Assembly: GCF_002237645.1 (NCBI RefSeq)
Contig: NZ_MJUZ01000007.1
Coordinates: 1 to 64,000 of the forward strand
Direction of reading: 5' to 3'
DNA: 64,000 nt
DNA from: Desulfovibrio sp. MES5
Lineage (GTDB): Bacteria; Desulfobacterota; Desulfovibrionia; Desulfovibrionales; Desulfovibrionaceae
Shown: piece after piece, positions 9,220 to 30,020 of the stretch
Layout: every line of letters starts with the position of its first letter
Position numbering within the stretch: the stretch's first letter is position 1
Made by a program: the position numbers and the translations under genes
The notes under the pieces: model-generated
Database searches by the model: none
Told to the model about the DNA's origin: nothing
The model's input: the letters and a program-made list of their open reading frames with translations, nothing else

Positions 9220-9921
9220 ATGACCCCATACCAATCTGAAAATATCACCGAACTGGCCAAGGCCTTGCTCAACGTGCAGCGAACCGTACAGCCTATCACC
9301 AAAGACGCTGAAAATCCTTTTACCAAAAGCTGGTACGCCAGTCTCAACAGCGTGATGGATGCCTGTCGTGATGCGCTCATCGAAAACGGCATCTGGCTGT
9401 GTCAGTACCCTGTGCCTGTGGAGCAGCCCAACTCTCTGGGCCTGGTCACCAAGCTGACGCATGCAGAGTCAGGGCAATGGCAAAGCTCTCTTGCTGTGGT
9501 TCCTCTGCCCAAGGCCGATCCGCAGGGCATGGGATCGGCCATGACCTATTGCCGTCGCTACGCTCTAACCGCCATGTTGGGCATGGTCACGGAAGATGAC
9601 GACGGAGAAGGGGCAAGAACTGGCCGAAAAACGCCCTCACGTCCGAAATTGCCCGTAAACGCCCCTGAGGCGCGAAAAGCGGCTTCGGGCGGCACTAACG
9701 TCGCGAATAGTTCTCCAACCCTCTCAAATCGGCCGCCAGCAGTACTTGAAAATCTTCCTCCGCTGGAAGGCATAACTTACCAGCAGGTCACGGCCCAGGA
9801 CGGGCGGCCCTGCATCATTGCCAGCGGCAACACGCAAGCCAAAAAGGAATTGCTCACAGGCGCGGGCTTCCGCTGGAACCCGCAGAGAAAATTGTGGTGG
9901 AAGTATGTTGATGCCGCATAG
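9220..9921 (+). CDS. ERF-family single-strand annealing recombinase
   Basis: A 233-residue protein. Residues 5–130 match the ERF family of single-strand DNA annealing proteins, as in phage P22: ITELAKALLNVQ, then YASLNSVMDACRDALIENGI, and the conserved GMGSAMTYCRRYALTAMLG followed by an acidic tail (EDDDGEGA). A variable linker (residues 135–185) leads to a C-terminal module, KKELLTGAGFRWNPQRKLWWK, of a kind found at the ends of phage DNA-processing proteins. ERF proteins anneal complementary strands during recombination; the nuclease gene that follows would supply single-stranded ends. The start is clear: CGGAGG lies seven bases before the ATG. Confidence 0.88.
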   Translation: MTPYQSENITELAKALLNVQRTVQPITKDAENPFTKSWYASLNSVMDACRDALIENGIWLCQYPVPVEQPNSLGLVTKLTHAESGQWQSSLAVVPLPKADPQGMGSAMTYCRRYALTAMLGMVTEDDDGEGARTGRKTPSRPKLPVNAPEARKAASGGTNVANSSPTLSNRPPAVLENLPPLEGITYQQVTAQDGRPCIIASGNTQAKKELLTGAGFRWNPQRKLWWKYVDAA

Positions 9922-9989: not shown

Positions 9990-11153
9990 ATGAAACAGCC
10001 GGACCGCACGGAAGGCTTGCGTTCGCTAATTCGTCAGGGGTTGCAAGCCGTCTCTCAGCAAAGTACCGCCGCTCATCTGGGCGACAGATCCACCTATGTG
10101 GGCATGAGCGACATCGGCCAGCATTGGGAATGCCCTCGTGCCGCTCTCGCCCGTAAGGTGATGCCCACGCCGAATAGCCTGGAGCGTCTGCTGACCCTGC
10201 AGCGCGGGCACTGGTTTGAATCTGGCGTTGGGCAAGCTCTGGCTTCGTTGGGCCTGCATGTACTGCCCCAGCTAGAAATAAGCTGGCAGCATCAGGGCGT
10301 ACCCATCAAGGCTCATTTGGATTTTGTGCTGGTCTGGGGTGCTCCCGTCAACGCCATACGGATTCTGGAAGTGAAAAGTACGGACAAGCTGCCTGCTTCG
10401 CCGCACGATTCTCACCTGCTGCAACTGCACGGTCAGCTTGGTCTGCTGACACAAGCCTGGGACAAGCCCGTTTTCAACATACGCGCTGAGGATGGCACGC
10501 TTCTGCATAAGAAAATGACCTTTCCACAACTTTGCCTTGCCCATCTTGGCCTTCAGTTGCCTGCAACTGCTGACAAGACAAGCATGGAGGCTTGGCTGCT
10601 CTGCCTTTCCATGCAGGATGTGACTACCTTTGGTCCTTACACTTTCAATCAGGCCATGCTGGATACGGCTCTTGACCATGCGGTCCAACTCTGGGGCGAC
10701 CTCACGGCCCACCGTGCCGGGAACTTGTCCCTTTCACAGGTAACCTGCGCCCAAGGTTTTTACCCAATCTGTTCGTACTGTGAATACAACGGCGACTGCC
10801 CCAAATTCCCACAGGGAGTGCAGATGCCGCAATGGGAGCCAGCGCTTGAAAAACTGACTGTCCTCAAGGAACAACGCACGGCTTTGGATAACGAAATCAA
10901 AGAAATGGAGACGGTGCTCAAGCTGGTTCATCGGCAATCTGGCACACGGGATTGGGTAGATACGGGGAAGTATCGCTTTCGCGCCTCCGTCGCGACTGGT
11001 CGAAATACACTGAACCGCGAAGTCCTGCATGAAGAACTGACTGACATCTTCCGCTTTGAAGGCTTGGGTGACATTGACGTGGATGCCTTGCTGGCCCGTT
11101 GCGAGCGCACCGGTGCGCCTTTCGAACGACTGTCCATTTCAACAATCAACTGA
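9990..11153 (+). CDS. PD-(D/E)XK nuclease with Cas4/AddB-type iron–sulfur cysteines
   Basis: A 387-residue RecB-family nuclease. The catalytic series is RGHWFE (72–77), Asp111 in AHLDF, and Glu127/Lys129 in LEVKS, the PD-(D/E)XK arrangement. Four cysteines match the Fe-S pattern of Cas4 and AddB: Cys48 in WECPR near the N-terminus, then Cys261-x2-Cys264-x5-Cys270 after the nuclease core. It probably degrades one DNA strand to create single-stranded tails for the ERF protein encoded just upstream, forming a Red-like pair; the partnership is inferred from adjacency. Downstream of the cysteines is a coiled-coil-like region (ALEKLTVLKEQRTALDNEIKEME is split in the middle by charged heptads). The GTG/ATG choice is clear: ATG with GGGGG upstream. 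Confidence 0.82.
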   Translation: MKQPDRTEGLRSLIRQGLQAVSQQSTAAHLGDRSTYVGMSDIGQHWECPRAALARKVMPTPNSLERLLTLQRGHWFESGVGQALASLGLHVLPQLEISWQHQGVPIKAHLDFVLVWGAPVNAIRILEVKSTDKLPASPHDSHLLQLHGQLGLLTQAWDKPVFNIRAEDGTLLHKKMTFPQLCLAHLGLQLPATADKTSMEAWLLCLSMQDVTTFGPYTFNQAMLDTALDHAVQLWGDLTAHRAGNLSLSQVTCAQGFYPICSYCEYNGDCPKFPQGVQMPQWEPALEKLTVLKEQRTALDNEIKEMETVLKLVHRQSGTRDWVDTGKYRFRASVATGRNTLNREVLHEELTDIFRFEGLGDIDVDALLARCERTGAPFERLSISTIN

Positions 11154-12156: not shown

Positions 12157-12186
12157 TAGCACACACAACATGAAAAGGTGAAAATA

Positions 12187-13542
12187 ATGAAAAATCCTAT
12201 AATTATTGAAATATCCAACCTCCAGCCCACCGATCTCGACGCCGGGCAGGTTTTCAGCGGCAAGCCCTCCGGCACCACGGTAAGAGGCTATGCCGCGCCC
12301 ACAGCGCACACTCCGGCCCTTGACCCAGGCTACATCTTCCACGAGTCCAGCCGCGACATGGTGGTCTGGTTCGTAAATCTTCAAGGGCCACAGGGGGCAC
12401 ATGAACCGCTGTACGTCTTCGGCCCCACAGGCTGCGGCAAAACAAGCTGCATCAAACAACTGGCGGCCAGGCTCAATTATCCGGTCTTTGAGGTGACAGG
12501 GCACGGCCGCCTGGAGTTCGCCGATCTGGTGGGGCATCTGACGGTCAAGGACGGCAATATGGCCTTTGAATACGGCCCGCTTGCCCTTGCCATGCGCCAC
12601 GGAGCGATTTTTCTCCTGAATGAGATCGACCTGACTTCGCCGGAAATCGCCGCTGGCCTGAACAGTGTGCTGGACGGTTCCCCCCTGTGCATTGCGGAAA
12701 ATGGGGGCGAAATCATCCAGCCGCACCCCATGTTCCGTTTCGTGGCCACGGCCAATACCAATGGCGCTGGCGATGACACGGGCCTGTACCAGGGCACGCA
12801 ACGCCAGAACCTCGCATGGTTGGACCGCTTCACCATCTGCGAAGTGGGCTACCCTGATGCAACTGTGGAGAAAAAACTGCTGTCCCAGCGTTTCCCTTCG
12901 CTTCCCGAATCGTTGTGCGCCACCATGGTGGACTATGCCAATGAAGTCCGCAAGCTGTTCATGGGCGAGGCTTCCACCGGCAACCTCACCAACACCATAG
13001 AAGTGACGTTCTCCACGCGCAGTCTGCTGCGCTGGGGGGATCTGACCGTGCGCTTTCAACCCCTGGCCCATCAGGGCATTCAGCCCGTGACCTATGCCCT
13101 CGACCGTGCCCTGGCCTACCGCGCCAGCCGCGAAACCCGCGCCATGCTGCACGAACTGGCCCAGCGCATGTTCCCCCAGCATACGGAAGCGGACATCAAG
13201 GCAATGAATTCCGGTTCAGAGGAGGAATCCCTGCAAGGCGATACCGCCCTTCGTTTCATGAAAAACCGTCTGTGCCATTCCCCCACGGTAACGCAACCCC
13301 GCGTCCACCTGCAGGTGACCTATGACCTGCCAGACCAGAGCACGTCTGGTAAATTCTGGATTGGCGAGGCTCGTCCTGAAGGCCTCATGCTCCATTGGGG
13401 CAAGCAGGGAACCTCCGGTCAGCAACGATTCATCCCCGCTGACAAATGCGAAAGCAATAATGCCGTGCTGGAGCTTGAAGCCCGTGCAGCCAAAAAACTC
13501 AGGGACGGCTACGTCCTCAACACCACAAAAAGTTCATTATAG
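12187..13542 (+). CDS. MoxR/CbbQ-like AAA+ ATPase with C-terminal WGR-like domain
   Basis: 451 residues from the ATG at 12187, which has AAAAGG eight bases upstream; a GTG three codons earlier is possible. Residues 75–330 form a MoxR/CbbQ-type AAA+ module: Walker A GPTGCGKT (79–86), HLTVKDGNMAFEYGPL, a Walker B-like strand AIFLLNEID (140–148), sensor FVATANTNG and WLDRF with a likely arginine finger. The Walker B Asp is Asn here (NEID instead of DEIN). Residues 385–440 (KFWIGEARPEGLMLHWGKQG onward) resemble a WGR domain, best known from PARPs and some bacterial nucleic-acid proteins. MoxR ATPases typically remodel partner VWA proteins; such a partner is encoded three genes downstream. Confidence 0.82.
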   Translation: MKNPIIIEISNLQPTDLDAGQVFSGKPSGTTVRGYAAPTAHTPALDPGYIFHESSRDMVVWFVNLQGPQGAHEPLYVFGPTGCGKTSCIKQLAARLNYPVFEVTGHGRLEFADLVGHLTVKDGNMAFEYGPLALAMRHGAIFLLNEIDLTSPEIAAGLNSVLDGSPLCIAENGGEIIQPHPMFRFVATANTNGAGDDTGLYQGTQRQNLAWLDRFTICEVGYPDATVEKKLLSQRFPSLPESLCATMVDYANEVRKLFMGEASTGNLTNTIEVTFSTRSLLRWGDLTVRFQPLAHQGIQPVTYALDRALAYRASRETRAMLHELAQRMFPQHTEADIKAMNSGSEEESLQGDTALRFMKNRLCHSPTVTQPRVHLQVTYDLPDQSTSGKFWIGEARPEGLMLHWGKQGTSGQQRFIPADKCESNNAVLELEARAAKKLRDGYVLNTTKSSL

Positions 13543-13551
13543 GAGAAGGTT

Positions 13552-14589
13552 ATGACACACGTTCTTTCAGACATCCGAATTCTCGACAATTTGCTGGCCC
13601 TCAATCTCAACGTCAGCCTGTGGTCAGCCCGCCGCAAGATGAGCCAGGAAGACCTGGGCGGAGCGGAACTTCCCCCTGAAGATCTGGCGTCCATTGGCTC
13701 CAAGCGCATCGCCGACCCGGAAAATCTCAAAGTGTTCGGCACACTCAAGGCCCGTGCCTTCAACTATCTGGACAGGCATGGCGTGCGTTTCATGTCCGGC
13801 TGGGCCATTCCTGAAGAAAAGGCCGGGGAAATCGTGCAGGAGCTTTGCAGCATCCGCAACGACTTCCAGAAAGAAAAAGAAGCCTTTCTGGCTGGTTATG
13901 ATCAGAATGTGCAGAGCTGGATAGAAAAACATCATCAATGGGGCGAAATTATCCGCAATTCCATCGTAGGGCCGAATTATGTCCGCGCCCGCATGGATTT
14001 TCGCTGGCAATTGTACAAGGTGTCCCCGCTGGCGCAGCATGCGGATAACACAGCCGTGCTGGAAGCCGGTCTGGCTGAAGAGGTACAGGGGCTCGGCGGT
14101 ACGCTCTTTGGCGAAGTTGCTAAGTCTGCCGAGGACATCTGGCGCAGGGTGTACCACGGAAAAACAGAAGTAACCCACAAGGCCCTTTCGCCCTTGCGGA
14201 CTCTGCATACCAAGCTCACAGGCCTGTCCTTTGTAGAACCTCATGTGGCCCCGGTGGCTGACATCGTGCAGGCCGCACTGCAACGCATCCCCAAGAAGGG
14301 CAATATCACCGGCACAGACCTGCTGCTTCTGCAAGGTCTGGTCTGCCTGCTCAAGGACAGTGACGCGCTGGTGGCCCACGCCCAGAAAGTTATCGAAGGT
14401 TACGGCCCGGCCTTTGTGCTGGATGCCTTGCTGGCCGATCCGGGCAGTATCCACGAATCAGACGACCCCGCTGGAGAAATTGAAGGCATTGCAGATGGGG
14501 AGATGGACGACGAGCCAGTACTGCCGGACATCCCCGTGGCAGACAATACGCTGCCTCATCCTGCCATTCCCAGCCTGGGCTTGTGGTGA
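13552..14589 (+). CDS. DUF3150-family protein
   Basis: 345 residues, starting at an ATG nine bases after the ATPase stop with AGGAGAAGG upstream. The N-terminal part (IRILDNLLALNLNVSLWSARRKM, quoted in part) and the EDLGGAELPPEDLASIGSKR segment match the DUF3150 family as known to the reader; its function is not established. The protein is largely helical, with long amphipathic stretches around 90–130 and 220–300 and an acidic C-terminal tail. Its fixed position between a MoxR-like ATPase and a VWA protein suggests it is an adaptor or substrate of that pair. That role is inference from gene order. Confidence 0.75.
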   Translation: MTHVLSDIRILDNLLALNLNVSLWSARRKMSQEDLGGAELPPEDLASIGSKRIADPENLKVFGTLKARAFNYLDRHGVRFMSGWAIPEEKAGEIVQELCSIRNDFQKEKEAFLAGYDQNVQSWIEKHHQWGEIIRNSIVGPNYVRARMDFRWQLYKVSPLAQHADNTAVLEAGLAEEVQGLGGTLFGEVAKSAEDIWRRVYHGKTEVTHKALSPLRTLHTKLTGLSFVEPHVAPVADIVQAALQRIPKKGNITGTDLLLLQGLVCLLKDSDALVAHAQKVIEGYGPAFVLDALLADPGSIHESDDPAGEIEGIADGEMDDEPVLPDIPVADNTLPHPAIPSLGLW

Positions 14590-14591
14590 TA

Positions 14592-14607
14592 TCAAGAAAT
14601 TTCTTGA
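14592..14607. promoter_or_regulatory. Perfect 16-bp palindrome upstream of the antitoxin–doc genes
   Basis: TCAAGAAATTTCTTGA reads the same on both strands and overlaps a TTGACG hexamer (14604–14609). It lies 45 bp before the antitoxin ATG. This is the expected layout for autorepression by a dimeric ribbon–helix–helix antitoxin at its own promoter. Confidence 0.55.
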
Positions 14608-14651
14608 CGTCAAGCTATAGGCTTCGTAGTCGTAAGAAAAAGGGGGTAGCC

Positions 14652-14888
14652 ATGACACAGGCATCCGTAAAACGGGTCAAATTCGCCAGCCAGATGGAGC
14701 CAGATCTTTATGAAGACCTTAAATCTGTGGCGCAAGAGGACGGACGGCAGATTCAGGCCGTGTTGGAAGATGCTGTGCGCATCTATATTGAAAATCGTAA
14801 ACGTCCCATGGCACGACGCCATGTGCTTGACGCCCTTGAAGTCAGCATGATTGAGCACGATGCCCTGTATCAAGAGCTTGCAAAGTGA
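14652..14888 (+). CDS. Antitoxin partner of Doc toxin
   Basis: A 78-residue protein starting at the ATG at 14652, with AGGGGG nine bases upstream. The segment VKRVKFASQMEPDLYEDLKSVA resembles (in its first half) a ribbon–helix–helix DNA-binding motif, and the C-terminal half (MARRHVLDALEVSMIEHDALYQELAK, quoted here only for its helical tail) would bind the toxin. It overlaps the toxin start by GTGA, so the two are translationally coupled. It probably represses its promoter through the upstream 16-bp palindrome. The longer frame beginning at 14583 runs back through the palindrome and is not used. Confidence 0.75.
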   Translation: MTQASVKRVKFASQMEPDLYEDLKSVAQEDGRQIQAVLEDAVRIYIENRKRPMARRHVLDALEVSMIEHDALYQELAK

Positions 14889-15259
14889 GCCGGGATTACC
14901 TGACGGTTGCCGACATTCTGGGTATGCACGTCATTCTTGTTGAAAGGTATGGCGGCATGCCCGGTGTTCGGGATATGGGCGGGCTGGAATCGGCTGTATA
15001 CCGGCCCCAAAGCGGCTACTATACGGATGCTGTGGAGGAGGCCTGCGCCTTGCTGGAAAGCCTGCTCATCAACCATCCCTTCATAGACGGAAACAAGCGG
15101 ACGGCCTTCGCTGCTTGCTCGGTTTTTCTACAGATCAATGGGCACGGCATGCGGGCGGATTCGGATTGGCTGTATGCGGCCATCATTCGCTGGCTGCAAC
15201 TGCCCCCTTCGGAGCGTTTCTCCACGATGCTGACTGACTTGCGAACCATTACAGAATGA
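14885..15259 (+). CDS. doc: Doc-family toxin (Fic fold, death-on-curing)
   Basis: 124 residues from a GTG start overlapping the antitoxin stop. The catalytic loop HPFIDGNKR (64–72) matches the Doc version of the Fic motif, with His64 as base and Asn70/Lys71/Arg72 in the anion hole. The segment MPGVRDMGGLESAVYRPQ is also typical of Doc. P1 Doc phosphorylates and inactivates elongation factor Tu; the same activity is expected but not shown. The pair stabilises the DNA that carries it. It is inserted in the middle of the ATPase/DUF3150/VWA series, in the same orientation. Confidence 0.87.
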   Translation: MSRDYLTVADILGMHVILVERYGGMPGVRDMGGLESAVYRPQSGYYTDAVEEACALLESLLINHPFIDGNKRTAFAACSVFLQINGHGMRADSDWLYAAIIRWLQLPPSERFSTMLTDLRTITE

Positions 15260-15322: not shown

Positions 15323-17026
15323 ATGATTCGCTCTAAAGACATCCTCAACTGCCTGCCCCTGCTGGCGTCCGTGTTGGGCGACCAGTACGGGGTGCAGGTA
15401 CGTATTGGTGGCAATGAAGCCTGCACCAATGGCAAGGTCATCTATTTGCCTGCATTGCCTATGGATTGTGAACCGGAATTGTTGGCCCGGGCCAAAGGTT
15501 TTTGTGACCACGAGGCGGCCCATATAAGGCACACGGACTTTGCTGCACTCAAAGCTGCCAAGCTTGATCCTGTAACCTTCAACCTCTTCAATTGCCTGGA
15601 AGATTGGCGTGTAGAAAAGAAGTTGTCGGCGATCTTTCCTGGATGCCGACAAAATTTGAACTGGCTGATCCGACGATTCTTTGTGGAACAGGCACAGCCA
15701 AGGGCCGGGGGTGATTCCCCGGCCCTTGCTGTTTTGGACTATGTGCTGTTGACCGTTCGGGCCTGGGACGTGGAAGAGGTGAACATGCCACGCATGGCAG
15801 CAGCAGATGCGCTATGCCAGTATTTCCCCGGCCTGAAGGAAATGCTGGATGCCACCTTAGTCAAAGTCCGCATACATTGTCCTGACACTGCTTCCACCAT
15901 CGCTTATGCTCGTCAATTGGCCCAGAGCATCCGGCAATGGGAACCGCAACCGCAGACAGAAAGCGACGAAAACAACGTGCAAAAAGGAGGAAGCAAGCCC
16001 AATACCAACAAGGGGCGGCGCAAAGGCCACGCTTCAGGGGCGCAAGAAGGACACGGATATGGTGTCGCCCACAGCGGTTCTGCCCCTCAATCAGAGCAAA
16101 ATCCCACGCCCGGTTGTGCTTCTCAAACGCAACAGCCCACGGCCCACAGCAGGGCCAAGGATCAACTCGCAGCCCTGTTCCACGCCGAGGCGCAAGACCT
16201 GCCGCAAGCCCTGGGGGATATTCTTTCAGGGGCCCTTACACGTTGTCAGGCAGAATCAGCCTATGAAACTGTTACGGTTGCCGTGGAGGGTTTTCGTCCA
16301 TCGGAGGCCTTGCCGGAGGCCCAAAAGCAGCAAGCTCTTAAGGCCAGTATTGCCCTGCGCACACGCCTTCAGGGTCTTTTGCAGGCTCAGACACAAAAGC
16401 GGTGCAGCATCGGGCGGCGCGGGGCATTGCATCCCGGCTCGCTCCATCGGCTGCAAACAGGCAATCCGCGCATTTTCCGCAGGGAGGCGGAACAAGGTGG
16501 CCTCAACACTGCTGTGCATATCCTGCTGGACGTCAGCGGCAGTATGAGCGGCACTCCCATCGTTCTGGCAAAGCAGGCGTGCTTTGCTGTGGCAAAAGCA
16601 CTGGAAAATATCCGGGGCGTCAACCCAGCGGTCACGGCTTTTCCGGCTATGGCTTCCACAAGTTCTGTATTCCCCATCATGAGGCATGGTCAAAAGATAC
16701 CGGATAACTTCGACATAAATGCCTCTGGCGGTACGCCACTTGATGCGGCCTTGTGGTGGGTTATGCAGACAATGCTGTTCCTCAAGGAGCAAAGAAAAAT
16801 CATCCTCGTCATTACAGACGGAATACCCGATAGCACACACGCAGCAACCCATGCTGTAACCGTAGCGCAAAAGCTTGGTTTTGAGGTGTATGGCCTTGGC
16901 ATCTGCAATGAACACATCGCCCACCTGCTGCCACAGACCAGCCGGGTTATTAACGATATTCCCAATCTGGCGCCCGTCATGTTTGACATGCTTCAGACCG
17001 CCCTACTCAAAGGCGGTGCGGCATGA
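15323..17026 (+). CDS. HExxH metallopeptidase-like protein with C-terminal von Willebrand A domain (CobT-like)
   Basis: 567 residues. Near the N-terminus, CDHEAAHIRHTDF carries HEAAH (63–67), a zinc-peptidase HExxH, followed by CLEDWRVEKK (91–100) whose Glu93 or Glu98 could be the third ligand. Residues 205–290 are a low-complexity polar linker. Residues 395–560 form a VWA domain with a complete metal-ion site: DVSGS (403–407), Thr471 in GGTPLD and Asp499 in ITDG. CobT-like VWA proteins work with MoxR-like ATPases; here the ATPase is encoded upstream in the same series. A protease regulated or remodelled by the ATPase is one reading. The start ATG has GAGG six bases upstream. Confidence 0.82.
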   Translation: MIRSKDILNCLPLLASVLGDQYGVQVRIGGNEACTNGKVIYLPALPMDCEPELLARAKGFCDHEAAHIRHTDFAALKAAKLDPVTFNLFNCLEDWRVEKKLSAIFPGCRQNLNWLIRRFFVEQAQPRAGGDSPALAVLDYVLLTVRAWDVEEVNMPRMAAADALCQYFPGLKEMLDATLVKVRIHCPDTASTIAYARQLAQSIRQWEPQPQTESDENNVQKGGSKPNTNKGRRKGHASGAQEGHGYGVAHSGSAPQSEQNPTPGCASQTQQPTAHSRAKDQLAALFHAEAQDLPQALGDILSGALTRCQAESAYETVTVAVEGFRPSEALPEAQKQQALKASIALRTRLQGLLQAQTQKRCSIGRRGALHPGSLHRLQTGNPRIFRREAEQGGLNTAVHILLDVSGSMSGTPIVLAKQACFAVAKALENIRGVNPAVTAFPAMASTSSVFPIMRHGQKIPDNFDINASGGTPLDAALWWVMQTMLFLKEQRKIILVITDGIPDSTHAATHAVTVAQKLGFEVYGLGICNEHIAHLLPQTSRVINDIPNLAPVMFDMLQTALLKGGAA

Positions 17027-17516: not shown

Positions 17517-18934
17517 ATGGCCTCGCCCGAACAAATCAGGCATGCATAGGTAAAGCAAACAACCCTGCAAAGGAGACCATCCCATGAGCGAGATTACTCT
17601 GATCGGCATCGACCTGGCAAAGAACATTTTTCGCATCAACTGCTTGGATGAAAACGGCAAGCGCGTCATGAACAAAAATCTGCACCGGGAAAGCGTTGTT
17701 CAATTTTTTGCGTCGCTATCCGAATGTACAGTGGCCATGGAAGCCTGCGCAAGTTCCCATTACTGGGGACGCACCATGAAATCTCTCGGGCATACGGTCA
17801 AGCTCATTCATCCGCGTTACGTTACGCCATACCGCCTCGGCGACAAGAATGATGCCAAGGATGCCGCGGCCATCTGTGCAGCCGCGCAACGTCCGGATAT
17901 GCGTTTCGTCCGGTTGCGCTCGCAACGCCAGTCGGACATCCAGGGCTTGCACAGGGTCCGTGAAGGACTTGTCGCCGAAAGAACCGCGACAATAAACAGG
18001 GTTCGCGCTCTGCTTGCCGAAAACGGCATCGTCATAAAACAAGGATCGACAAATGTATTCTCCGCTTTGCCTGTCATCATCGACGATTATGAAAATAATC
18101 TGTCTGGCATGATGCGACAGCTTTTGCGGATGCAATATGCCCTTCTGCTTGCTCTGCGTGAACAGTTGTCCGAGTTAGGGAAAATGCTGCAAGCACTTGT
18201 AACCCAAGAAGAAGCGTATCATGCAGCTTCCAGGTCTTGGCGTGATAACGGCAACATTACTCGGCTCGGAACTGGGCAACGGTTCCGCCTTCCGTAACGG
18301 TCGCGCTTTTGCTGCTTACTTGGGATTGACTCCCAGACAACACTCAAGCGGCGGGAAAAATGTACTTTTGGGCATCAGCAAGCATGGGAACCGCTATTTG
18401 CGTACCTTGCTGGTCCACGGGGCCAGGACAACGCTACGCTCTATTCTCTTTGGCCGCTCCCCATTTGGTGGAGGCCCGATTGAGGCGTGGGCAACAGAGT
18501 TGCTGAACCGGCGAGGTAAAAACAAAACCATTGTGGCTCTGGCGGGAAAGCTGGCGCGAATGGCGTGGGCCATATTGGCGAAAGGCGTATCTTTCCAAAA
18601 AGCAGCGTGTGCCGCATAGCATTTTTCACGAGCCTTACAGCGTGACATTTTGATGGTGTCGCATGCAAATCTCTCGCCAAACCTAAACAAACACTGATGA
18701 CGAAAACTATTTCCCTCCCGAGGATGTGAGAGTCAAGACGCATGGAATAAACGGTCGGACCTGCTTTCGGAAAACCTGGTGCAGTCCGTGGTCATGAAGA
18801 CCGATTAGCCGATTAGGACCGAAAGCGCGGATTACCCATACTGGCGCGGCGATATCGCCTGATGCCGAATATACGTGTGCATCCGATTTGTTTTTACTTC
18901 ATGAAGAAAGACCTTGACTCCTGGGCGAGGCCAT
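17517..18934 (+). mobile_element. IS110-family (IS1111-type) insertion sequence, frameshifted
   Basis: A 12-bp inverted repeat, ATGGCCTCGCCC at 17517–17528 and GGGCGAGGCCAT at 18923–18934, brackets an IS110-type transposase gene. Subterminal inverted repeats are characteristic of the IS1111 branch, and the ~1.4-kb span fits. True ends lie a few bases outside the repeats and cannot be fixed by eye. The ~300 bp after the transposase (18620–18922) shows no gene, as expected for the non-coding end that specifies the bridge RNA in this family. Confidence 0.75.
17584..18619 (+). pseudogene. IS110-family transposase, disrupted by a frameshift
   Basis: The first frame (17584–~18215) carries the DEDD-type N-terminal domain: IGIDLAKNIFRINCLDENG, MEACASSHYWGR, and KNDAKDAAAICAAAQRP. 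The second frame (from about 18210 to 18619) carries the C-terminal transposase_20 domain: MQLPGLGVITATLLGSELG, FAAYLGLTPRQHSSGGK and GISKHGNRYLRTLL. They differ by one reading frame and join near 18210–18225, where a single extra base (or two missing) would explain the break. IS110 transposases are normally one continuous frame, so this copy is probably inactive unless the break is a sequencing error. The ATG has AAAGGAG eight bases upstream. Confidence 0.82.
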
Positions 18935-19066
18935 ATACGGACAGTAATGAACTTGAATATCAAGCCGACATTAGAAATTAGGCCCGGCTACCAATTCAAT
19001 GTCATAGTCACTAAAGATATGGTGTTTGAACAGCCGTATAGAGCAGGGAGCTAGGAAATGCGATTA
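18935..19066. other. Short intergenic region
   Basis: No gene or clear signal is seen between the IS110-type end and the convergently placed ParE-like toxin gene. Confidence 0.4.
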
Positions 19067-19435
19067 TTACTTATCTCTGTCTCTACTATAAGAAGTAAGC
19101 AAGCGTTCTTTCAAAAGCGAAGAAAAATTGCGCCGCCCATCAGCGATAAGATGGATATGAACTTCATGACTCGCTTTGTGAATTTGATAAAAAATTCGAT
19201 ACGGCGGAACTTGAATCTCCCTGAAAGACAATATGTTTACTCGCCTCAATTCGGGTGGGATCCGCCCTCTATCGGGCAATTCGGACAAGCTGTCTCGCGC
19301 TTGAAGGAATTTGTTCAAAATCGTATCTGCCATGTCCGGGCCTTCTCTGTCAGCAATGAAAGAAACAATATCAGAAATGTCTCTTTTAGCACGGCTCGTA
19401 AAAGAGGAAATCCAAGTTTTCCTACCTATGCTCAT
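19067..19435 (-). CDS. ParE/RelE-family toxin
   Basis: 122 residues from the ATG at 19435, which has GGAG seven bases upstream and overlaps the antitoxin stop by 14 bp. Features of the ParE/RelE fold: an N-terminal SRAKRDISDIVSFIADR helix, a LPDRGRIPPELR loop, FREIQVPPYRIFYQI strands and a final VHIHLIADGRRNF. ParE members poison DNA gyrase and RelE members cut mRNA; the target cannot be told from sequence. The toxin frame continues past the usual end with a basic tail. Confidence 0.83.
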   Translation of the reverse strand: MSIGRKTWISSFTSRAKRDISDIVSFIADREGPDMADTILNKFLQARDSLSELPDRGRIPPELRRVNILSFREIQVPPYRIFYQIHKASHEVHIHLIADGRRNFSSLLKERLLTSYSRDRDK

Positions 19436-19712
19436 TGCGTTTCTCCGCAATCATATTCCGTAGGTCGGCAAAAACTTCGTCAGAGTCATGCAAGTTGCCA
19501 GCCTCTACATCAGCGGAGCTTTCTGCCAGTAGGCGTAACAGGGCAAGGCTTTCCTGCATTTGGTCATATTCTCGTACATTCATTACTACCGCCTTGGCTT
19601 CACCATTTTGTGTAATGATCATAGGATTGCCAGATTCATCAACGGATTCAATAAGTTGCTTGGCGTTATTTTTAAGCCATGAAATAGGCTTTATGTCGGA
19701 ATGAAATTGCAT
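19422..19712 (-). CDS. Phd/YefM-family antitoxin
   Basis: 96 residues. The N-terminal ISWLKNNAKQLIESVDESGN and PMIITQNGEAKAVVMNVREYD are the Phd/YefM DNA-binding fold. The C-terminal acidic part would inhibit the toxin encoded next. GGAGGG lies four bases before the ATG. A near-palindrome at 19738–19751 upstream is a likely operator for autorepression. Confidence 0.88.
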   Translation of the reverse strand: MQFHSDIKPISWLKNNAKQLIESVDESGNPMIITQNGEAKAVVMNVREYDQMQESLALLRLLAESSADVEAGNLHDSDEVFADLRNMIAEKRNEHR

Positions 19713-19737
19713 AGACCCTCCATATGGGAAAAATTAT

Positions 19738-19751
19738 GTCTGAATTTAGAC
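19738..19751 (-). promoter_or_regulatory. Near-palindromic operator candidate for the YefM–ParE pair
   Basis: GTCTGAATTTAGAC is symmetrical at 12 of 14 positions and lies 26 bp upstream of the antitoxin start. On the minus strand it is followed by CATAAT, a plausible -10 box, so antitoxin binding would block the promoter. Confidence 0.45.
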
Positions 19752-19914
19752 TAATCATTGTAGGAAAAGAAATCAAGGATTCTTTGTAAATTCTTTCTGC
19801 GGGACACGCTCCCCAATTTCGCGTCGCCAGACGGCCTCTTTACGAGACTGTCAGAGGTGCTCCCCAAAAATCGGACAGGTGTGATAGCTACTCAACCAGA
19901 CGAGGAGAACACAC

Positions 19915-20199
19915 ATGTCCAAGCGAAAGAATCATGCCCCGGCTTTCAAGGCCCGAGTGGCCCTGACTGCTCTTTCCGGCGATAAGACCATCGCTGAACT
20001 CAGTTCAGAATTCGGCGTTCATCAGACACTCATCCACAAATGGGTGAAGCAGCTCAAGGAGTCGGCCGCGGGCATCTTTGCCGGTGAAATCAAGACCGAA
20101 GAGGCCAGAAAGGAAAAACAACTCCAGGTACTTCATGCCAAAATCGGTCAGCTTACTGTGGAACGAGATTTTTTAGCCGAGGCCTGGGGGAAGCGGTGA
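19915..20199 (+). CDS. IS3-family transposase OrfA
   Basis: 94 residues with an N-terminal helix–turn–helix (FKARVALTALSGDKTIAELS, then FGVHQTLIHKWVKQ) and a C-terminal leucine-rich coiled coil (LQVLHAKIGQLTVERDFL). It binds the IS ends and joins OrfB. Near its end the codons TTT TTA are preceded by T, making the slippery heptamer T TTT TTA (20169–20175). A -1 shift there enters the orfB frame without meeting a stop, giving an OrfAB fusion transposase. OrfA alone ends 24 bases later. Confidence 0.9.
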   Translation: MSKRKNHAPAFKARVALTALSGDKTIAELSSEFGVHQTLIHKWVKQLKESAAGIFAGEIKTEEARKEKQLQVLHAKIGQLTVERDFLAEAWGKR

Positions 20200-21044
20200 G
20201 CGTCTCCCGCAGGCAAAGCATGGTCAATCCGGGCCATGCGCAGCTCAGCGTCGTCCGGCAGTGTCGCCTGCTCAAAGTCGTTCGTTCCAGCTTGTATTAC
20301 GAAAAAGCCGGAGAATCGGCCATAAACCGCACATTGATGCAGGAAATCGACCGGGCTTTCACCGAATGGCCGTTTTTTGGAGTGCGGCAAATGTGCCGCT
20401 ATCTTGTGTCACTGGGGTACTGCGTCGGCAGAAAGCGCGTCCGCCGCCTGATGCGGCTGATGGGGTTCATGGCAATATACCAGAAACCGAAAACCAGCGT
20501 GCCGAACCCGGAGCATAAACGGTACCCCTACCTGTTGCGCGACCTGACCATAGCCCGGAGCAACCAGGTCTGGTGCTCGGATATAACGTACATTCCAATG
20601 CGTAAGGGGTTTCTATACCTGGTCGCCATCATGGACTGGCACAGCCGCAAAGTATTGTCCTGGCGGCTCTCAAACACTATGGAAGCGGATTTTTGCATTG
20701 TGGCCCTGGAAGAAGCCTTGGAAAAATACGGCACACCAGATATCTTCAACACGGATCAGGGTAGTCAGTTTACCAGCGTTGCCTTTACAAACGTCCTGCG
20801 GAACAATGGAATCCGCATCTCCATGGACGGCCGAGGCCGTTGGCTGGACAACGTGTTTATTGAACGTCTCTGGCGCTCGCTCAAATACGAAAATGTGTAT
20901 CTGAACGCTTACGAAACTGGCTCGGAAGCCCGCGAGGGTATCGGCAGATGGATCAGCTTTTACAATCAGACTCGTCCGCACAGCAGCCTGGACGGGACAA
21001 CTCCAGAGCGCTGCTACCATCAGGGACTAGTAAAGGCAGCCTAA
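20196..21044 (+). CDS. IS3-family transposase OrfB (DDE integrase core)
   Basis: 282 residues in the -1 frame relative to orfA, overlapping it by GTGA. The integrase core shows the catalytic triad: Asp in WCSDITYIP, Asp in [11 protein letters not shown] and Glu in [12 protein letters not shown]. An HTH_21-like region ([20 protein letters not shown]) precedes it. The C-terminus, [20 protein letters not shown], is characteristic of the family. It may start independently at the GTG, or be made as an OrfAB fusion by frameshifting. The copy looks intact. Confidence 0.92.
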
Positions 21045-23953
21045 TGAGGAAAAAGACAAGCTAAGGAACCGCTGTTTCCTGTCCGAACAAGGGGGCCACC
21101 TCTAACATCCTTCATGAAGGTTTTGGAAGTAACGCCATTGGCAATAGCGACCACCAATGATGAAGCAAGGTTTTCATAATTTGCTTCGGTCATGTTCTGG
21201 CCCGCTATCGTGAGGTCTGCGGCAAGGCTAAGAACCATTCCCGCAGGGTCATACCGTTTGTATGAGTAATAACCATCACCAATCTTGATGCTGTAGGGCT
21301 GCCAGCCGGTAGCCTCCAGCGCCTTACGCTGCTTGGGGTCTTTTGGCGGGCTGCCCGTGATGGCCCCAGACATTGCCAAGCCGACCGCCCCGGCCCATAT
21401 GAGGGAACCAGTAGCCATCTTTGCGCGGGCCAGAGCAGCTTGTTCTCCCCCGGCTGCTATGGCTGCCCGGTAATCCCGGCTCAACTGCCCGATAGCTGGG
21501 GTGTGGGCTACGAAGTCCCGAAGGATGTTCGCAGGGGTCTTGATGAACGGAACCACAACCCGAATCATTGGGTGGTCATTGGCATAGCGCTGGAAGCCCC
21601 CGGCAAGGGTCTGTTCTCCTAAATCCTGCGTCCATGTGGCTTGCCTTGCGTATTCAAGGTAGGGCTTCAAGGCTTCGTCATTGCGGGCTGCCCCTCTGCC
21701 AGTGATGGCAAGGCGCATCTGCTCATTAACGTAGGACTCAATAGCCTGGGCGTCTTTCAAACCGCCCTCCATAGCCTCACGGCGCAGGGATGCACCCAAG
21801 GAGGCCCGGAAGTTGAGCTGTTTGAAAAACTCGTCAGTGCCCACCAGAATGCGGGAGGGAAGGCGAAGGTAAGGCCCCAGCACACCAGCCGAAGAGGCGA
21901 TAAGCTCTTGCATGGTGTTAAGCTGGGTTCCTCTGGGCTTTCCGTCCAGCATCATGGCTCTGATATTGTCGTAAGTGATCTGAGCACCGTTGCTTTCCAT
22001 CTTGCCAACACTGCCAGCACCTTCAAGAAGGCCATCTTCTGTTCTGAAGGCTTTCTTTGCAAGTTTCATGCTGTCTGTGAAGTAAGTATAGAGGCCGCTC
22101 AGGGTGTCTATTGCCTCTTGCCGTAATGCCTTGTCCTTGGTTATGACGCCTGACAGATAACGCTCTGTAGGCATGAGCAGGGCCTTCATAAAGTTTGAAC
22201 CAGCATTGGCAACCATTGTCATGGGTCCGGAAAGCATATTACTGATTCTGAACTCTTGGAAGATGCCAAGCTTTGTTCCTGTGGACATGGTGTTTACTGC
22301 CTGGGCAATGGCTCCTTTGTTATCAGCATTGATTACCGCGTCCCTTGCTATGCGGGCCATGTTGTCATGGTTCCAGCCTTCACGGGTAAGGAAACTGCGG
22401 ATTTGTTCTTCACTGAGGTTTGAGGGCGAAGCATGCCATTGAAAAGCCTTCTGCCCTTCGGCCTTGGCTTCGTTGGCTGCAAGCTCGTCACTGGCCTTGT
22501 AAACGCTGTCGATGTTCTTTTTCAGCGTGGCAAGGTCAAGCTTCTCCTGCATGGAAACGGAAGCAGGGTTCACATGAAGCTTGCGGGCTATCTTCAGGAA
22601 CTCCCCTGTAAAGAAGTCCATAGCTGTCTTCAGTTCCCCAAGGGTTTGGGCCGAAGCTTTAACGGCTTCAGCTTCTCCGCTGGTGATGGCCTTTTCTGCA
22701 AAGCTCTGTATGGTCTTGGTGTCCATGCCGTAGCGTTGCACAAGGTCGTCAGTGGTTGAGGAAAGCGAATCCAGAACTTCAACAGGGGCTTGCTTGGTGG
22801 TTCCTGATTCAACTGTTTCTTGAACATGCTTCAGGAAGTCGAAGCCGTGTTCACTGTGCAGGATGTCCCGGCCCGTCACCCGGCCTGTGGTGCTGCCACG
22901 GGCAAGGATATTCAAGGCATCATCAAGGTTGGCGGCTTTGCCGTCTCCTATGAGGTCTTTCAGGGTGCCGGGGTTTATCAAGCTGTCGGGCCTGAAGCTG
23001 TCCTTTGCGGCCTCTTTGGCCTCCTGAGCGGCTTCAGTATGGAGCAGGGATTTAGCGTCCTCTGAGACGCCTTTTACCCCGCTGGCTGCATCGGTGGCGG
23101 CCTCCCCGGTCTCTTCTCTGACCTGCCGGATGTGTTCCACGGTTTTGCTGTATATCTGGTCTTTGGCGGCTTTGGTGGTTGCCTTGCTGGCGCGGTAGAC
23201 GCCCACAACGGCAAGGGCTGATTCCAAGGCCATGCCTATGCCAAGGTCTTCAAAGCCGTGCTTTAGACGGCCTACAAGTTCGTTGTCGTCCTTATCCACA
23301 GCAAGGGCTTCAGTAATGACGTTTTGAAGGGCCGGGCTTTCCTGAATGGCATTGGAAAGCATCTCTTCATGCCCGTCAAAGCTGGTCACGGTGCTGTAGA
23401 AAGACTTTGCCGCCCCACGGGCCAGCGTTGCCGCCTTGGTGCTGCCCTGAAGCAGCTTTACCCCTTTGAGCAATGCGCCACCTGTGAGGAAGCCAGAGAG
23501 GAACGTGGAAAGCTGCTCTGCTGCCTTCCCGGCCCCGGTCTCTGTTGGGCCAAAGTTTTCCATATCTATGCCGTGTTCTGCTGCGGCTTCCACCACATTG
23601 AACTCTTCGCCGCCTTGGGCAAGGGTTCCGGCAAGGTCTATGGTCTCGTTGACCGAATTTATCGGGCCGTTGGCAATCCCTTTGCCCACGTCCAGAAGGT
23701 AATCAAGGAAGCCCTTGTTCTCCTCTGGCTGCTTGGCGGCGTTCTCTGGGGCGTCTGCGGCTGCTGGGGAGGGTTCCCCCTGCGGTGTCTGCTGCGGCTC
23801 AATGGCTGAAAGCTGACCCTCTGGGGTTTCTTCATTATGATGATTTATTTCAAGATCAATATTAGTGGGCAATGCTTCGGCCATGCCTTGAAGCATGCCG
23901 TTATCCCCTGAAACTTCCACATCCATGCTTTGGGGTATATTGTCGATTCTCAT
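21041..23953 (-). CDS. Phage internal virion (ejection) protein, C-terminally truncated by IS3
   Basis: A 970-residue frame; the last ~19 residues (after MKDV) are encoded by the IS3 end, so the true 3' end of the gene is missing. The N-terminus is acidic and Pro/Gln-rich, followed by FLDYLLDVGKGIANGPINS and Gly/Ala-rich hydrophobic stretches (FLSGFLTGGALLKG). Toward the end, VVPFIKTPANILRDFVAHTP, LIWAGAVGLAMSGAITGSPP and WQPYSIKIGDGYYSYKRYDP match a block I know from large podovirus ejection proteins such as T7 gp16-like proteins. Such proteins leave the capsid and form the DNA-translocating channel. GAGGTGAG lies seven bases before the ATG, three bases after the upstream gene. Confidence 0.68.
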   Translation of the reverse strand: MRIDNIPQSMDVEVSGDNGMLQGMAEALPTNIDLEINHHNEETPEGQLSAIEPQQTPQGEPSPAAADAPENAAKQPEENKGFLDYLLDVGKGIANGPINSVNETIDLAGTLAQGGEEFNVVEAAAEHGIDMENFGPTETGAGKAAEQLSTFLSGFLTGGALLKGVKLLQGSTKAATLARGAAKSFYSTVTSFDGHEEMLSNAIQESPALQNVITEALAVDKDDNELVGRLKHGFEDLGIGMALESALAVVGVYRASKATTKAAKDQIYSKTVEHIRQVREETGEAATDAASGVKGVSEDAKSLLHTEAAQEAKEAAKDSFRPDSLINPGTLKDLIGDGKAANLDDALNILARGSTTGRVTGRDILHSEHGFDFLKHVQETVESGTTKQAPVEVLDSLSSTTDDLVQRYGMDTKTIQSFAEKAITSGEAEAVKASAQTLGELKTAMDFFTGEFLKIARKLHVNPASVSMQEKLDLATLKKNIDSVYKASDELAANEAKAEGQKAFQWHASPSNLSEEQIRSFLTREGWNHDNMARIARDAVINADNKGAIAQAVNTMSTGTKLGIFQEFRISNMLSGPMTMVANAGSNFMKALLMPTERYLSGVITKDKALRQEAIDTLSGLYTYFTDSMKLAKKAFRTEDGLLEGAGSVGKMESNGAQITYDNIRAMMLDGKPRGTQLNTMQELIASSAGVLGPYLRLPSRILVGTDEFFKQLNFRASLGASLRREAMEGGLKDAQAIESYVNEQMRLAITGRGAARNDEALKPYLEYARQATWTQDLGEQTLAGGFQRYANDHPMIRVVVPFIKTPANILRDFVAHTPAIGQLSRDYRAAIAAGGEQAALARAKMATGSLIWAGAVGLAMSGAITGSPPKDPKQRKALEATGWQPYSIKIGDGYYSYKRYDPAGMVLSLAADLTIAGQNMTEANYENLASSLVVAIANGVTSKTFMKDVRGGPLVRTGNSGSLACLFPH

Positions 23954-23956
23954 GTT

Positions 23957-26200
23957 TTATCTCACCTCTATCTGACGGGTAAACTTGGCGGCTGCTCCCG
24001 GCTTTGCTGTAGCTGCCGGGGGTGGTGATGCCTTGATGCCCTTTTCTTTGAACCAGTTGTAGATATCCATCTGTGCCGCCCTAGCGTCTTTGATGCCACG
24101 GGCTTCAGGGTTTTCACCCCGCACAATGAAGTACATTTCCTGCCAAGTAAGCCCGCCTTCAACCCTGCTGTCTGCAAAGCGCAAGACATCTTGCAAAGTC
24201 TTCGCGCTGTTCAGTTGTTGGGCTGCTGTGGGGTCTTTGGCTATGCTGTCGCCAAACAGGGTATTGATGTGGTTGATTGTTCCATTGACCACTTCAACCT
24301 GTGCAGGTCTGGAACGTGAGGGAAAGAAAGAATTATCAGACCCTCCCGTTACTTCCATGTTCTTGAGGTTGGTAAGGTAGCTGCGTGTTTGCTTGTTGTC
24401 TGTTGCCTCGGCCTTTTCTGTGGCAAAGCGTTCCTTAGTGGCCTTGATTCGTTTATCAAGGAATTGCCCTTGGAACTCTTGGGTAAACCGCTGCATATCC
24501 AGAGCGGTCAAAGGGGCGTCCTTCTCCCGTGGGTCTGTCTTGGCTGCGGCCCTTTCCTTTTTCTTCTCTGCCACAAAGTCAGCAAAGGCCGTGTTCACAT
24601 CCGGCAAGTCCATCATGACTTGGGCAAGTATTCCGGCTGTGGGCTTCTTGCTGCTACCTGTGTTGTATGAGTGGTAAATGTCGGCGGCTTCTTCTGCTGA
24701 AACATCGCCAACCATTGAAATGTACGTCTTTGAGAGGTTGGCCTGAGCGGTCAAGATCGCTTGGCCTTCGGCGGTGCTGTTGCTGTCGGCTATGGCTAAC
24801 AGGCGTTGAACCTGGGTAGGGTCATAGCCTTCTTGTGCAAGGTACATTACCTGAGCCTTACCCGCTTTGCCTTGCTTAAGGTCAGATTCAAGGGTAAGGG
24901 CTGCCGTAGTAAGCTGTGGGTTGGCATACATGGACTTGAATTGCCCTTTCTGCCCGTCTTCGGCTGCCTTCTTGAAGTGGGGGTAATCCTCTGGGCTGCA
25001 AAGCTTGAGCCTGTCTACTACCTCGGCTCTAGACAAATCAGCCGAGCCTTTGGCCCCGTATTCGTAGCCCTTGGTTATGGCTGACCGGGCCGACTCCTCC
25101 CGTTGCCATTGCAAACGGGTGTGGGAGCGGGTTTCGGCCTTCCATGCCCTTTCGGTTTCCTGTTCCTCAAGCTGTTCAATGCCTTTGGCAATTCCCGGCT
25201 GTGACATGAGGCTGACCTTCTGGCCGTTCACGTCAACTGTGATTGCCTGAGCAAGCTGGCGAGCGGTTCTGGATGAGTGGTTGCCATGAAGCACCACTTT
25301 ACCAAGGAAGCCAACAACGCGGTCTTGTGAGTAGCCCAGGCGCTTCATTTCTTCGACCTCGCCCATGATGGCGCTTGCCGCTTCCTGAGCGTAGGCAACG
25401 CGATCAGAGGGAATCTTGGTATCCCTGCCGCCAAGCGGTGAAGTGAGGTCTTGCTTCATGGCTAGGATGTTCTGAATATTCTGTGCCTTCTGTTGTTCCA
25501 GAAGGTTTGCATTCTGGCTTTCCACGTCCTTGCTGTGGCGGGCTAGGATGCCATCAAGCATGCGGGCCGTAGGGTGGGCAAAGTGTTCAGCAAGCATGAA
25601 TTTGTCATCATACTTGTCTAACCCCTGCTGCTGCATGTACAGCTTTCTCTGTTCCTCGCTCCAAGCCATGACCTTTGCTGGGTCTCGCTCGTTTCGTATG
25701 TCACTTGTGCTATAGGCGTCCTCAAGTGAGGCCGCAAACTGAATGGCATTTCCCTTAAGAATTTCGCCTTCAATGGCTTTCTTCACATGAGGCGAAAGGT
25801 TTAGAACATTGGGGTCAGCAAGCGCGGCCTGCCGGAATGCCTCAATGTTCTTTGTCATTCCTGGGTGTTCGGCCTTGAAAAGCTCTGCTGAAGCCTTGTC
25901 TTCAAGAATACGCCTGTCTATGTGGGCCTCATATGCCCTATCTAAAGCTTTGTCCCAAGGGCGCAAAGCATCTACAAGACGCCCTATGTCAGAGCCAACA
26001 AGCGGGTCTCTCCCGATGGTGTTTGGTTGTGCTGGCACATAGGTACTTAGGCTGCTGCCACCCTGCATGGCTGGTCGGAAGTTGGTAATGGCTTCAAGCT
26101 TTTCTCTGATTGTCCTTGGCTCTTTGTTCCTGTTGTCCATGTTGTTTAAGGCCTCTCTCATGCGGTGGTTAAAGGTTGATATTGCATGCCCTCGCCCCAT
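23957..26200 (-). CDS. Phage internal virion protein (T7 gp15-like position)
   Basis: A 747-residue, mostly helical, charged protein without recognisable catalytic motif. Parts such as ILEDKASAELFKAEHPGMTK and MAWSEEQRKLYMQQQGLDKY, long helical arrays, and a C-terminal basic, Ala/Pro-rich tail suit a structural virion component. It directly precedes the gp16-like gene (3-bp gap), as gp15 precedes gp16 in T7-like phages, and its length matches that class. The call rests on size, character and order rather than on a clear motif. The start is uncertain: the ATG at 26200 has only a weak ribosome site, and internal ATGs at MREALNN and MDNRNKEP are possible. Confidence 0.5.
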   Translation of the reverse strand: MGRGHAISTFNHRMREALNNMDNRNKEPRTIREKLEAITNFRPAMQGGSSLSTYVPAQPNTIGRDPLVGSDIGRLVDALRPWDKALDRAYEAHIDRRILEDKASAELFKAEHPGMTKNIEAFRQAALADPNVLNLSPHVKKAIEGEILKGNAIQFAASLEDAYSTSDIRNERDPAKVMAWSEEQRKLYMQQQGLDKYDDKFMLAEHFAHPTARMLDGILARHSKDVESQNANLLEQQKAQNIQNILAMKQDLTSPLGGRDTKIPSDRVAYAQEAASAIMGEVEEMKRLGYSQDRVVGFLGKVVLHGNHSSRTARQLAQAITVDVNGQKVSLMSQPGIAKGIEQLEEQETERAWKAETRSHTRLQWQREESARSAITKGYEYGAKGSADLSRAEVVDRLKLCSPEDYPHFKKAAEDGQKGQFKSMYANPQLTTAALTLESDLKQGKAGKAQVMYLAQEGYDPTQVQRLLAIADSNSTAEGQAILTAQANLSKTYISMVGDVSAEEAADIYHSYNTGSSKKPTAGILAQVMMDLPDVNTAFADFVAEKKKERAAAKTDPREKDAPLTALDMQRFTQEFQGQFLDKRIKATKERFATEKAEATDNKQTRSYLTNLKNMEVTGGSDNSFFPSRSRPAQVEVVNGTINHINTLFGDSIAKDPTAAQQLNSAKTLQDVLRFADSRVEGGLTWQEMYFIVRGENPEARGIKDARAAQMDIYNWFKEKGIKASPPPAATAKPGAAAKFTRQIEVR

Positions 26201-27525
26201 GATGAAGAAAGCCCCGCTTGTGTGGTCTTCATAACCAGCACAAACGGGGCAGCATGAGGGAGGGAGGTTTGGAAAGTATAGGATTGGTGAACTATAAGTT
26301 TTTATTGATTATGGATTATGGATAATGATTTCTTTAGATAACCTAAAGTTAATAATTCATCATGATAAAACATAAAGAAAGAAAACTAAGGATTATGTTT
26401 AATCAAGAAAACCTTAGAATAAACTTTATATGTTTAGATTAAGGAAGAAAACTTTAGGGGAGTCTTTAAGTTTTATCTTAGGGGAGTTTTTAGAGTAATC
26501 TTAAGATGCCCCCCTACCCCCCAAGGGAAACCCTAAAAAGCCCCCTTGCCTCCTCCCGGTTGCATTTGCTTTTACAAAACATGTCTTTCTTCAATGGTGC
26601 AACCTAATTCCAACATATTGATTTGATTATTTTTTCACGATATTTGAATTTTCTTTTCAATCTTCATAACTATCTGAATTTATTTATCTTCCATTAGACA
26701 AGAATCTACTGTGAGTTACCCAGATAGGAGGGTCTTACCCCGTAGGGGAAAAGCCGAAGGTTTGCGCTTGATGGTCTAAAGAATGGTGATTGGTTGGCTA
26801 TGGGTAAGCCTGTGGGATGGGCAGGGAAAGACCACCTCTTTCTCCGATAGGTGCAACCTAATTCCAATAGACTTAATTTGCAGAAGAAAACCGCTTGGAA
26901 AGCTAGTGGCGGCTTTGGGTGCTCTCTCTATGGTGGAACCTAATTCCAATAGACTGAATTTGCAGGAGAAAACCGCTTGGAGAACTTGCGGCGGCTTTGG
27001 GTGCTCTTCCGATAGGTGGAAGGTAATTCGGAGCGGCTTCTTCCGATTGATGGCAGGTAGTTGCTAAGAGGCTGAAATTGTTGAAAGGTCGTGTAGCCCG
27101 ACCTTTGCCACCCCGGCCTGAATTTGGCTGGCCAAAATAGACTAAGGCTGGCAATGGGTCGGGGCTGGGGATTTCGTGCGGGATTTGGGGTAAATCGGGG
27201 TATGGGCTGGGGAAGACTGAAAGGGGTACACGGCTGGTGTGTATCCCGATAACTGGCGAGAGCTGGGGAGGATTGCCCTAAGTAATCCTTAGGGCGCGTG
27301 GGCGTTGCTTGCGGAAAGGGTCTGCATAGTGTGCCGACCCTTGGAGAGTTTGGGGCTAGTGGTACGGTAGTGTCGTATCCCTTCAGAGTGTGAAGTTCGT
27401 GTTTAGTGGTGCTCATCATCCTGTCGTTCTTTTTTAGCGTGATATAGACCAAAACAGAACACAACAATAATTAAAACTGTCACTAAAATATAAACATCCA
27501 TTTCCCTACCTCTTATGGTCATGCT
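26201..27525. other. 1.3-kb non-coding region of the prophage remnant
   Basis: 26280–26500 is strikingly AT-rich, with repeated CTTAGGGGAG/CTTTAGGGGAG and GGATTATGGAT words, then a C-run (26510–26530). 26844–27010 holds an 82-bp tandem repeat. 27060–27440 returns to higher GC without a convincing gene; a 175-codon minus-strand frame there has no ribosome site, atypical Pro/Ser/Arg-rich composition and runs into the repeat. In phages such a region could hold promoters, an origin or packaging signals; none can be proven from sequence. Confidence 0.5.
26844..27010. repeat. Tandem direct repeat, 82-bp period, two copies
   Basis: Two units share AACCTAATTCCAATAGACT, AATTTGCAG, GAGAAAACCGCTTGGA-type and GGCGGCTTTGGGTGCTCT segments with a few substitutions. 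The period is 82 bp, measured from AACC at 26855 to AACC at 26937. A degenerate third start (GATAGGTGGAAGGTAATTC) follows at 27011, and an isolated half-copy (GCAACCTAATTCCAACA) lies at 26599–26615. Lengths fit no codon multiple, which supports a non-coding role. Confidence 0.8.
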
Positions 27526-27840: not shown

Positions 27841-27842
27841 TG

Positions 27843-29975: not shown

Positions 29976-29996
29976 GCATAAGGGCCTTATATCTCT

Positions 29997-30020
29997 AGCA
30001 CTTAAATGATTTCAAGTGCT
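29997..30020. repeat. Inverted repeat between integrase and tRNA
   Basis: AGCACTT (29997–30003) and AAGTGCT (30014–30020) face each other across 10 bases. The position, between attachment site and integrase gene, would suit an integrase or excisionase arm site; this is inference. Confidence 0.35.

Follow-up and report, generated by a model that had tools for sequence, protein, structure and literature searches.

The CobT-like protein of Desulfovibrio sp. MES5 described here has, in our estimation, about an even chance of being the adaptor or effector subunit of a AAA+ machine that travels on mobile elements; a MoxR hexamer would be the motor, the protein's N-terminal domain would cleave a substrate at a gluzincin-like HExxH...E site, and the machine would act in the element's DNA recombination or replication. 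Its gene lies in a 64,000-nucleotide stretch of contig NZ_MJUZ01000007.1 (hereafter the window), within a module with the following features.

9220 to 9921, forward strand: ERF-type single-strand annealing protein (PF04404, E = 5.7e-34; phrog_155).
9990 to 11153, forward strand: PD-(D/E)XK, RecE-like exonuclease (weak matches to Pfam, 0.046, and PHROG, 1.2e-4; place conserved in related loci).
12178 to 13542, forward strand: MoxR/CbbQ-type AAA+ ATPase, the presumed motor partner (AAA_5, 8e-23; CbbQ_C, 1.5e-10; linkage).
13552 to 14589, forward strand: DUF3150 protein, third conserved member of the module (PF11348, 1.3e-95).
15323 to 17026, forward strand: CobT-like protein (P0001), 567 residues, an ORF from ATG (Pfam CobT, CobT_C and VWA; AlphaFold2 model).
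15509 to 15523, forward strand: HEAAH, residues 63–67, on a helix predicted at 51–70 (H63, E64 and H67 invariant in 72 homologues; lost in canonical CobT).
15599 to 15616, forward strand: EDWRVE, residues 93–98, on a helix predicted at 83–104 (E93 and E98 invariant; D94 in at least 90%).
15938 to 16147, forward strand: polar, disordered linker, residues about 206–275 (low pLDDT, weak constraint).
16529 to 16819, forward strand: VWA MIDAS, comprising D403-x-S405-x-S407 (16529–16543), T471 (16733–16735) and D499 (16817–16819), from the residue check and alignment.

Inspected residue by residue, P0001 carries H63, E64, H67, E93, D94, R96, E98, D403, S405, S407, T471 and D499 at these positions, with LEDWRVE at residues 92–98 and DVSGS at 403–407. 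The sequence-only reading had described HEAAH with a downstream ED-WRVE, a complete MIDAS (DVSGS/Thr471/Asp499) and a polar linker between them, and it was accurate in each of these particulars. Both Pfam models of CobT match above their gathering thresholds, CobT with 49.8 bits (cut-off 26.1) over residues 15–243 and CobT_C with 42.9 bits (cut-off 21). An AlphaFold2 model built on an alignment of 72 relatives (mean pLDDT 88.4) has a mainly helical N-domain at residues about 11–204 and a VWA half, both predicted with confidence, and between them a disordered linker; HExxH and E93/E98 lie on successive, confidently predicted helices.

The modelled N-domain has few strands, unlike textbook zincins, and searching it against the PDB with Foldseek gave no match to a solved structure (best E 1.6), nor did any Pfam peptidase family match it in P0001 or in the 72 family members. 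For the whole protein, CobT was the top sequence match in the PDB, and NorD of the NorQD complex (PDB 9qhd) was the best solved fold match, over the VWA region only. A weak profile match of the N-domain, at residues about 82–152, was to the anti-CRISPR AcrIIA26 (PDB 9zq6_B, E 0.04); this borderline match spans LNFVEDNFIE...EYNG, which resembles the NxxEDxRxE...YPG helix of the window family. Comparison by eye with the HExxH regions of M78/IrrE peptidases established no profile link. DUF2201_N (PF13203), a 'putative metallopeptidase' with a VWA-like domain, is also an HExxH family, and two Desulfovibrio members show the motif; its second motif, however, is WNxAxDxxxN rather than NxxEDxRxE, and we rejected membership because the Pfam model matches neither P0001 nor any of the 72 members. 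The host genome encodes a separate DUF2201_N putative metallopeptidase with HExxH (contig C41, 112086–113000; L227).

We gathered homologues from the host genome and its relatives, viral contigs, genome contigs, and annotated phages and plasmids. HExxH is present in 153/157 of them, a set biased toward the motif since DHE[ASI][AG]H was one of the two patterns used on viral and genome contigs; we therefore tallied separately the sequences that came from a whole-protein search or bore the VWA pattern, and among these, gathered without selection on the motif, HExxH is found in 75 of 79; it is found in 30 of 33 that have the VWA pattern and lack the DHE pattern. These counts led us to reject a chance motif. 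Since HExxH arises in 2.2% of shuffles of the P0001 sequence, the motif by itself carries little weight, which comes instead from its joint invariance with E93 and E98 (alignments A2 and A3). Alignment A2, with 72 rows drawn from the pattern-found set and a mean column identity of 25%, has 13 invariant columns (H63, E64, H67, E93, E98, G107, D403, S405, S407, M408, F440, D499 and G526), hardly more than the two predicted sites. The metallopeptidase-like site proposed in the sequence-only reading is thus kept, HExxH and downstream Glu together, in close and distant homologues alike, so the lack of HExxH conservation that was to refute the proposal did not appear, and across the 72 homologues the conserved pairing of HExxH with a downstream acidic ligand is that of a gluzincin-like metallopeptidase, which would bind zinc here. 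Purifying selection follows the same division: in the four least saturated pairs, pairwise dN/dS is about 0.09–0.12 for the N-domain and 0.12–0.20 for the VWA domain, and the linker, at about 0.35–0.57, is weakly constrained.

The exceptions bear on which residues make up the candidate site. Three proteins, L113, L127 and that of ICP2, have another residue in place of E93 but keep HExxH and D94; from the alignments, E93 is most likely the third metal ligand, ahead of D94 or E98. In homologue L032 the motif reads MEAAR and the ED.R.E residues are altered too, a joint loss, and two Azospirillum copies (L189 and L192) have one additional residue within HExxH; these three degenerate versions may be natural inactive variants.

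Genuine cobaltochelatase CobT (PF06213 and PF11775; PDB 9uka, 21vu and 21vt) shares the order of N-domain, linker and VWA domain with the window protein, keeps equivalents of E93, R96 and E98 as well as the MIDAS, and likewise has a MoxR-type ATPase partner, but in it the two His and the catalytic Glu of the HExxH motif are gone. In canonical CobT sequences, for which we drew on bacteria with an element-borne homologue as well, the HExxH columns read DAVSLR, DALALR or DAASLR, and in the solved CobT chains DSMALRQ; strong canonical and weak element-type matches co-occur in 6/10 genomes (G246–G250 and G252). In a tree of 62 proteins, the eight canonical CobT sequences share a single long branch, which neighbours marine phage copies (SH-aLRT 95, midpoint rooting); that the chelatase lineage lost the site once would be the simplest reading of this midpoint-rooted tree with its long branches. 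Against the NCBIfam equivalog model of CobT (TIGR01651) the window protein scores 54.9 bits, far below the cut-off of 759, and the window MoxR scores 93.8 bits against the CobS model, whose cut-off is 558.6. The label 'CobT-like' stands as a statement of descent, the homology to real CobT running over its length, and fails as a statement of function. A wider reading, which we hold tentatively and as somewhat short of an even bet, is that the 'CobT' proteins of mobile elements make up a large family of metallopeptidases that are driven by AAA+ motors and work on protein–DNA complexes, that chelatase CobT is a descendant whose protease site was lost on recruitment, and that phage cobS/cobT 'auxiliary metabolic genes' have been misread.

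CobST (cobalt) and NorQD (iron) are MoxR–VWA pairs that install metals in target enzymes. Since these nearest relatives of known role serve metal-cofactor enzymes, and since the N-domain has no peptidase match in the PDB or Pfam, the window pair might instead insert metal into a target enzyme, its HExxH/E site carrying or sensing the metal without proteolysis. NorQD does have a NorQ/MoxR-type partner with CbbQ_C, as the window MoxR has, but it corresponds to the window protein in the VWA region only, and it serves nitric oxide reductase. Canonical CobT, a known metal inserter, manages without the HExxH site, and E64 is invariant although the Glu of HExxH sites does not bind the metal; as the putative general base, it favours hydrolysis over mere metal binding or carriage. 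We consider metal insertion unlikely, if still the strongest competitor to a motor-driven protease.

In the window the genes run from the annealing protein through the exonuclease, a small ORF, MoxR, DUF3150 and an Arc-like antitoxin with Doc to the VWA protein; a VWA domain with a MIDAS and a linked MoxR-type AAA+ gene, the hallmarks of MoxR–VWA systems, are both present. Counting same-strand genes within 8 kb, for 45 cellular loci that have 6 kb or more upstream and for 46 viral contigs, we found MoxR in 42/45 cellular loci and in all 46 viral contigs, 20 of which also hold a pyrimidine-dimer glycosylase homologue; the cellular loci further contain DUF3150 (44/45), the exonuclease (34/45) and the annealing protein (28/45). 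Marine phage copies are without DUF3150 and without a nearby annealing protein. A weak match to a WGR domain (7e-4) is confined to the C-terminal extension of the window MoxR, and none of ten other MoxR proteins showed it, so we discarded a WGR tail as a general MoxR feature.

The Arc-like antitoxin and Doc (Fic-type) toxin occupy 14583–15259, between DUF3150 and the VWA gene, and Doc is also found in a relative's 95% identical copy (L014). The host genome has four further full copies of the VWA protein and one fragment, and in those four copies DUF3150 adjoins the VWA gene and the toxin pair is missing, which marks the pair as an insertion. The five full module copies (VWA proteins 67–79% identical) and the fragment are on host contigs C7, C28, C49, C51, C5 and C27; five copies in one genome point to repeated acquisition of related elements. 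Downstream, positions 17584–30000 of the window hold IS110- and IS3-type transposases, two toxin/antitoxin-like ORFs (19067–19712), an internal virion protein gene (21041–23953) and an integrase (27843–29975), and look like a decayed prophage.

Beyond this genome, the IncC plasmid pVCR94 encodes MoxR, ssb, bet, exo, DUF3150 and VWA consecutively. The CobT–CobS genes of phage SSU5 and of a Rhizobium phage adjoin DNA polymerase III alpha, the copy in cyanophage S-ShM2 is beside clamp and clamp-loader genes, and that of ICP2 is near primase and helicase. The annealing protein and exonuclease of the cellular modules, together with polymerase, primase, clamp and repair neighbours in several phages, make a DNA-linked role likely, and with such recombination and replication neighbours a substrate located on DNA, or close by, is the one we prefer. 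Like NorQ with NorD and CobS with CobT, the MoxR hexamer would probably bind the VWA/MIDAS domain; it would pass ATP-driven remodelling on to a substrate recruited via VWA, moving or unfolding it. The N-terminal domain, with its gluzincin-like site, would probably then cleave that substrate, and the likely outcome would be that proteins are cleared, processed or assembled on the element's DNA as it recombines or replicates. Several observations speak against this reading: the N-domain matches no solved structure and no Pfam peptidase family, its model is poor in strands, a few homologues (L032, L189 and L192) have a lost or altered site, and the marine phage copies lack DUF3150 and a nearby annealing protein. 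The sequence-only reading had proposed a protease-like domain whose access or assembly is governed by the VWA domain and a MoxR ATPase; the conservation of the site and the linkage to MoxR bear out part of that proposal, and the docking of MoxR on VWA and their control of access to the predicted protease site may apply, as the analogous NorQD and CobST pairs suggest.

The same neighbourhood could be read as that of a weapon, a machine that unfolds and cleaves a host protein guarding DNA or acting in defence, since the module is found on phages and conjugative plasmids alike and its neighbouring genes act on incoming DNA. With PADLOC, neither the VWA protein nor DUF3150 matched an anti-phage system, and neither of the two matches a defence or counter-defence family; the tie to recombination genes is also closer and more specific than a general weapon would show; host takeover or counter-defence thus seems distinctly improbable.

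MoxR–VWA pairs with such a protease-like domain have been described before. In group 2.2 jumbo phages, MoxR is accompanied by a vWA domain fused to an N-terminal metallopeptidase, and a role in virion assembly has been proposed (Iyer 2021, PMC7824862). The window protein belongs to this already described kind, where its architecture places it: the jumbo-phage pair (ASV44728/ASV44729), which we liken to the window by its described architecture only, also combines an N-terminal metallopeptidase–vWA fusion with an adjacent MoxR. The settings differ, the former being large phages and a virion role, the latter a prophage or plasmid recombination module with DUF3150. Assembly and trimming of structural proteins by the pair, as that proposal would have it, could find an echo in the internal virion protein gene downstream in the window, but the window gene itself sits within a recombination module, and 1,986 plasmid records, of which roughly half are conjugative, hold homologues, whereas plasmids form no particles; we regard virion maturation as improbable here, and a shade more so than counter-defence. 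A MoxR–VWA gene group on pCAR1, R478, Rts1, SXT and R391, noticed in 2009 (PMC2642839), likewise unites a CbbQ-type MoxR and a VWA protein in one conserved group, of which pVCR94 has a homologous set; a peptidase site or function is not noted there. Our search of the open literature returned nothing that joins the jumbo-phage and plasmid groups, calls the site family-wide or treats CobT as a degenerate member; literature on DUF3150 with cobS/bet/exo and on CobNST structures held nothing about the N-domain, and a paper on SXT recombination leaves the MoxR–VWA module genes unmentioned.

Cobalt chelation fares worst. A 2021 study put forward a hijack of host CobN by viral CobST and held the 'peptidase' label to be mistaken (PMC8651126); on this proposal for tailed viruses, an element-borne CobST pair would join host CobN and raise vitamin B12 output, and the full-length homology of the window protein to CobT, that of MoxR to CobS and the presence of CobN in 10/32 other genomes holding a homologue speak for it, but CobN (PF02514) was not found in the host genome (completeness 100), which has two CbiK chelatases instead, CobN is absent from the remaining 22/32, both equivalog scores are far too low and the HExxH that true CobT lacks is present, so that we reject chelation in this host and consider it very improbable as the role of the pair. 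The sequence-only remark that chelation makes no sense in this context thus agrees with the host's gene content. Without CobN the hijacking proposal cannot apply here, and with CobN missing from 22 of the 32 other hosts chelating cobalt is not what the element-borne family does in general. A cyanophage 'peptidase' and the halovirus HCTV-2 protein, from groups covered by that study, contain HEVGH...IEDARVE and HEMEH...VLEDQYID, respectively, so the sequences support the 'peptidase' label; a structure search also linked halovirus proteins (HCTV-2 and HHTV-2) to the N-domain of the window protein.

Phage cobS/cobT genes, including those in the cyanophage core genome, are currently read as vitamin B12 auxiliary metabolic genes. 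The site pattern opposes that reading, in that element copies keep a complete protease-like site that the real chelatase has lost and many hosts are without CobN, and the family is also found on IncC-type plasmids beside recombination genes. The gene that databases call 'cobalt chelatase CobT' is here probably no vitamin gene but one for a motor-driven protease belonging to DNA recombination modules, and it is the wider family reading, with CobT as a degenerate member, rather than membership in a known kind, that gives the finding its interest.
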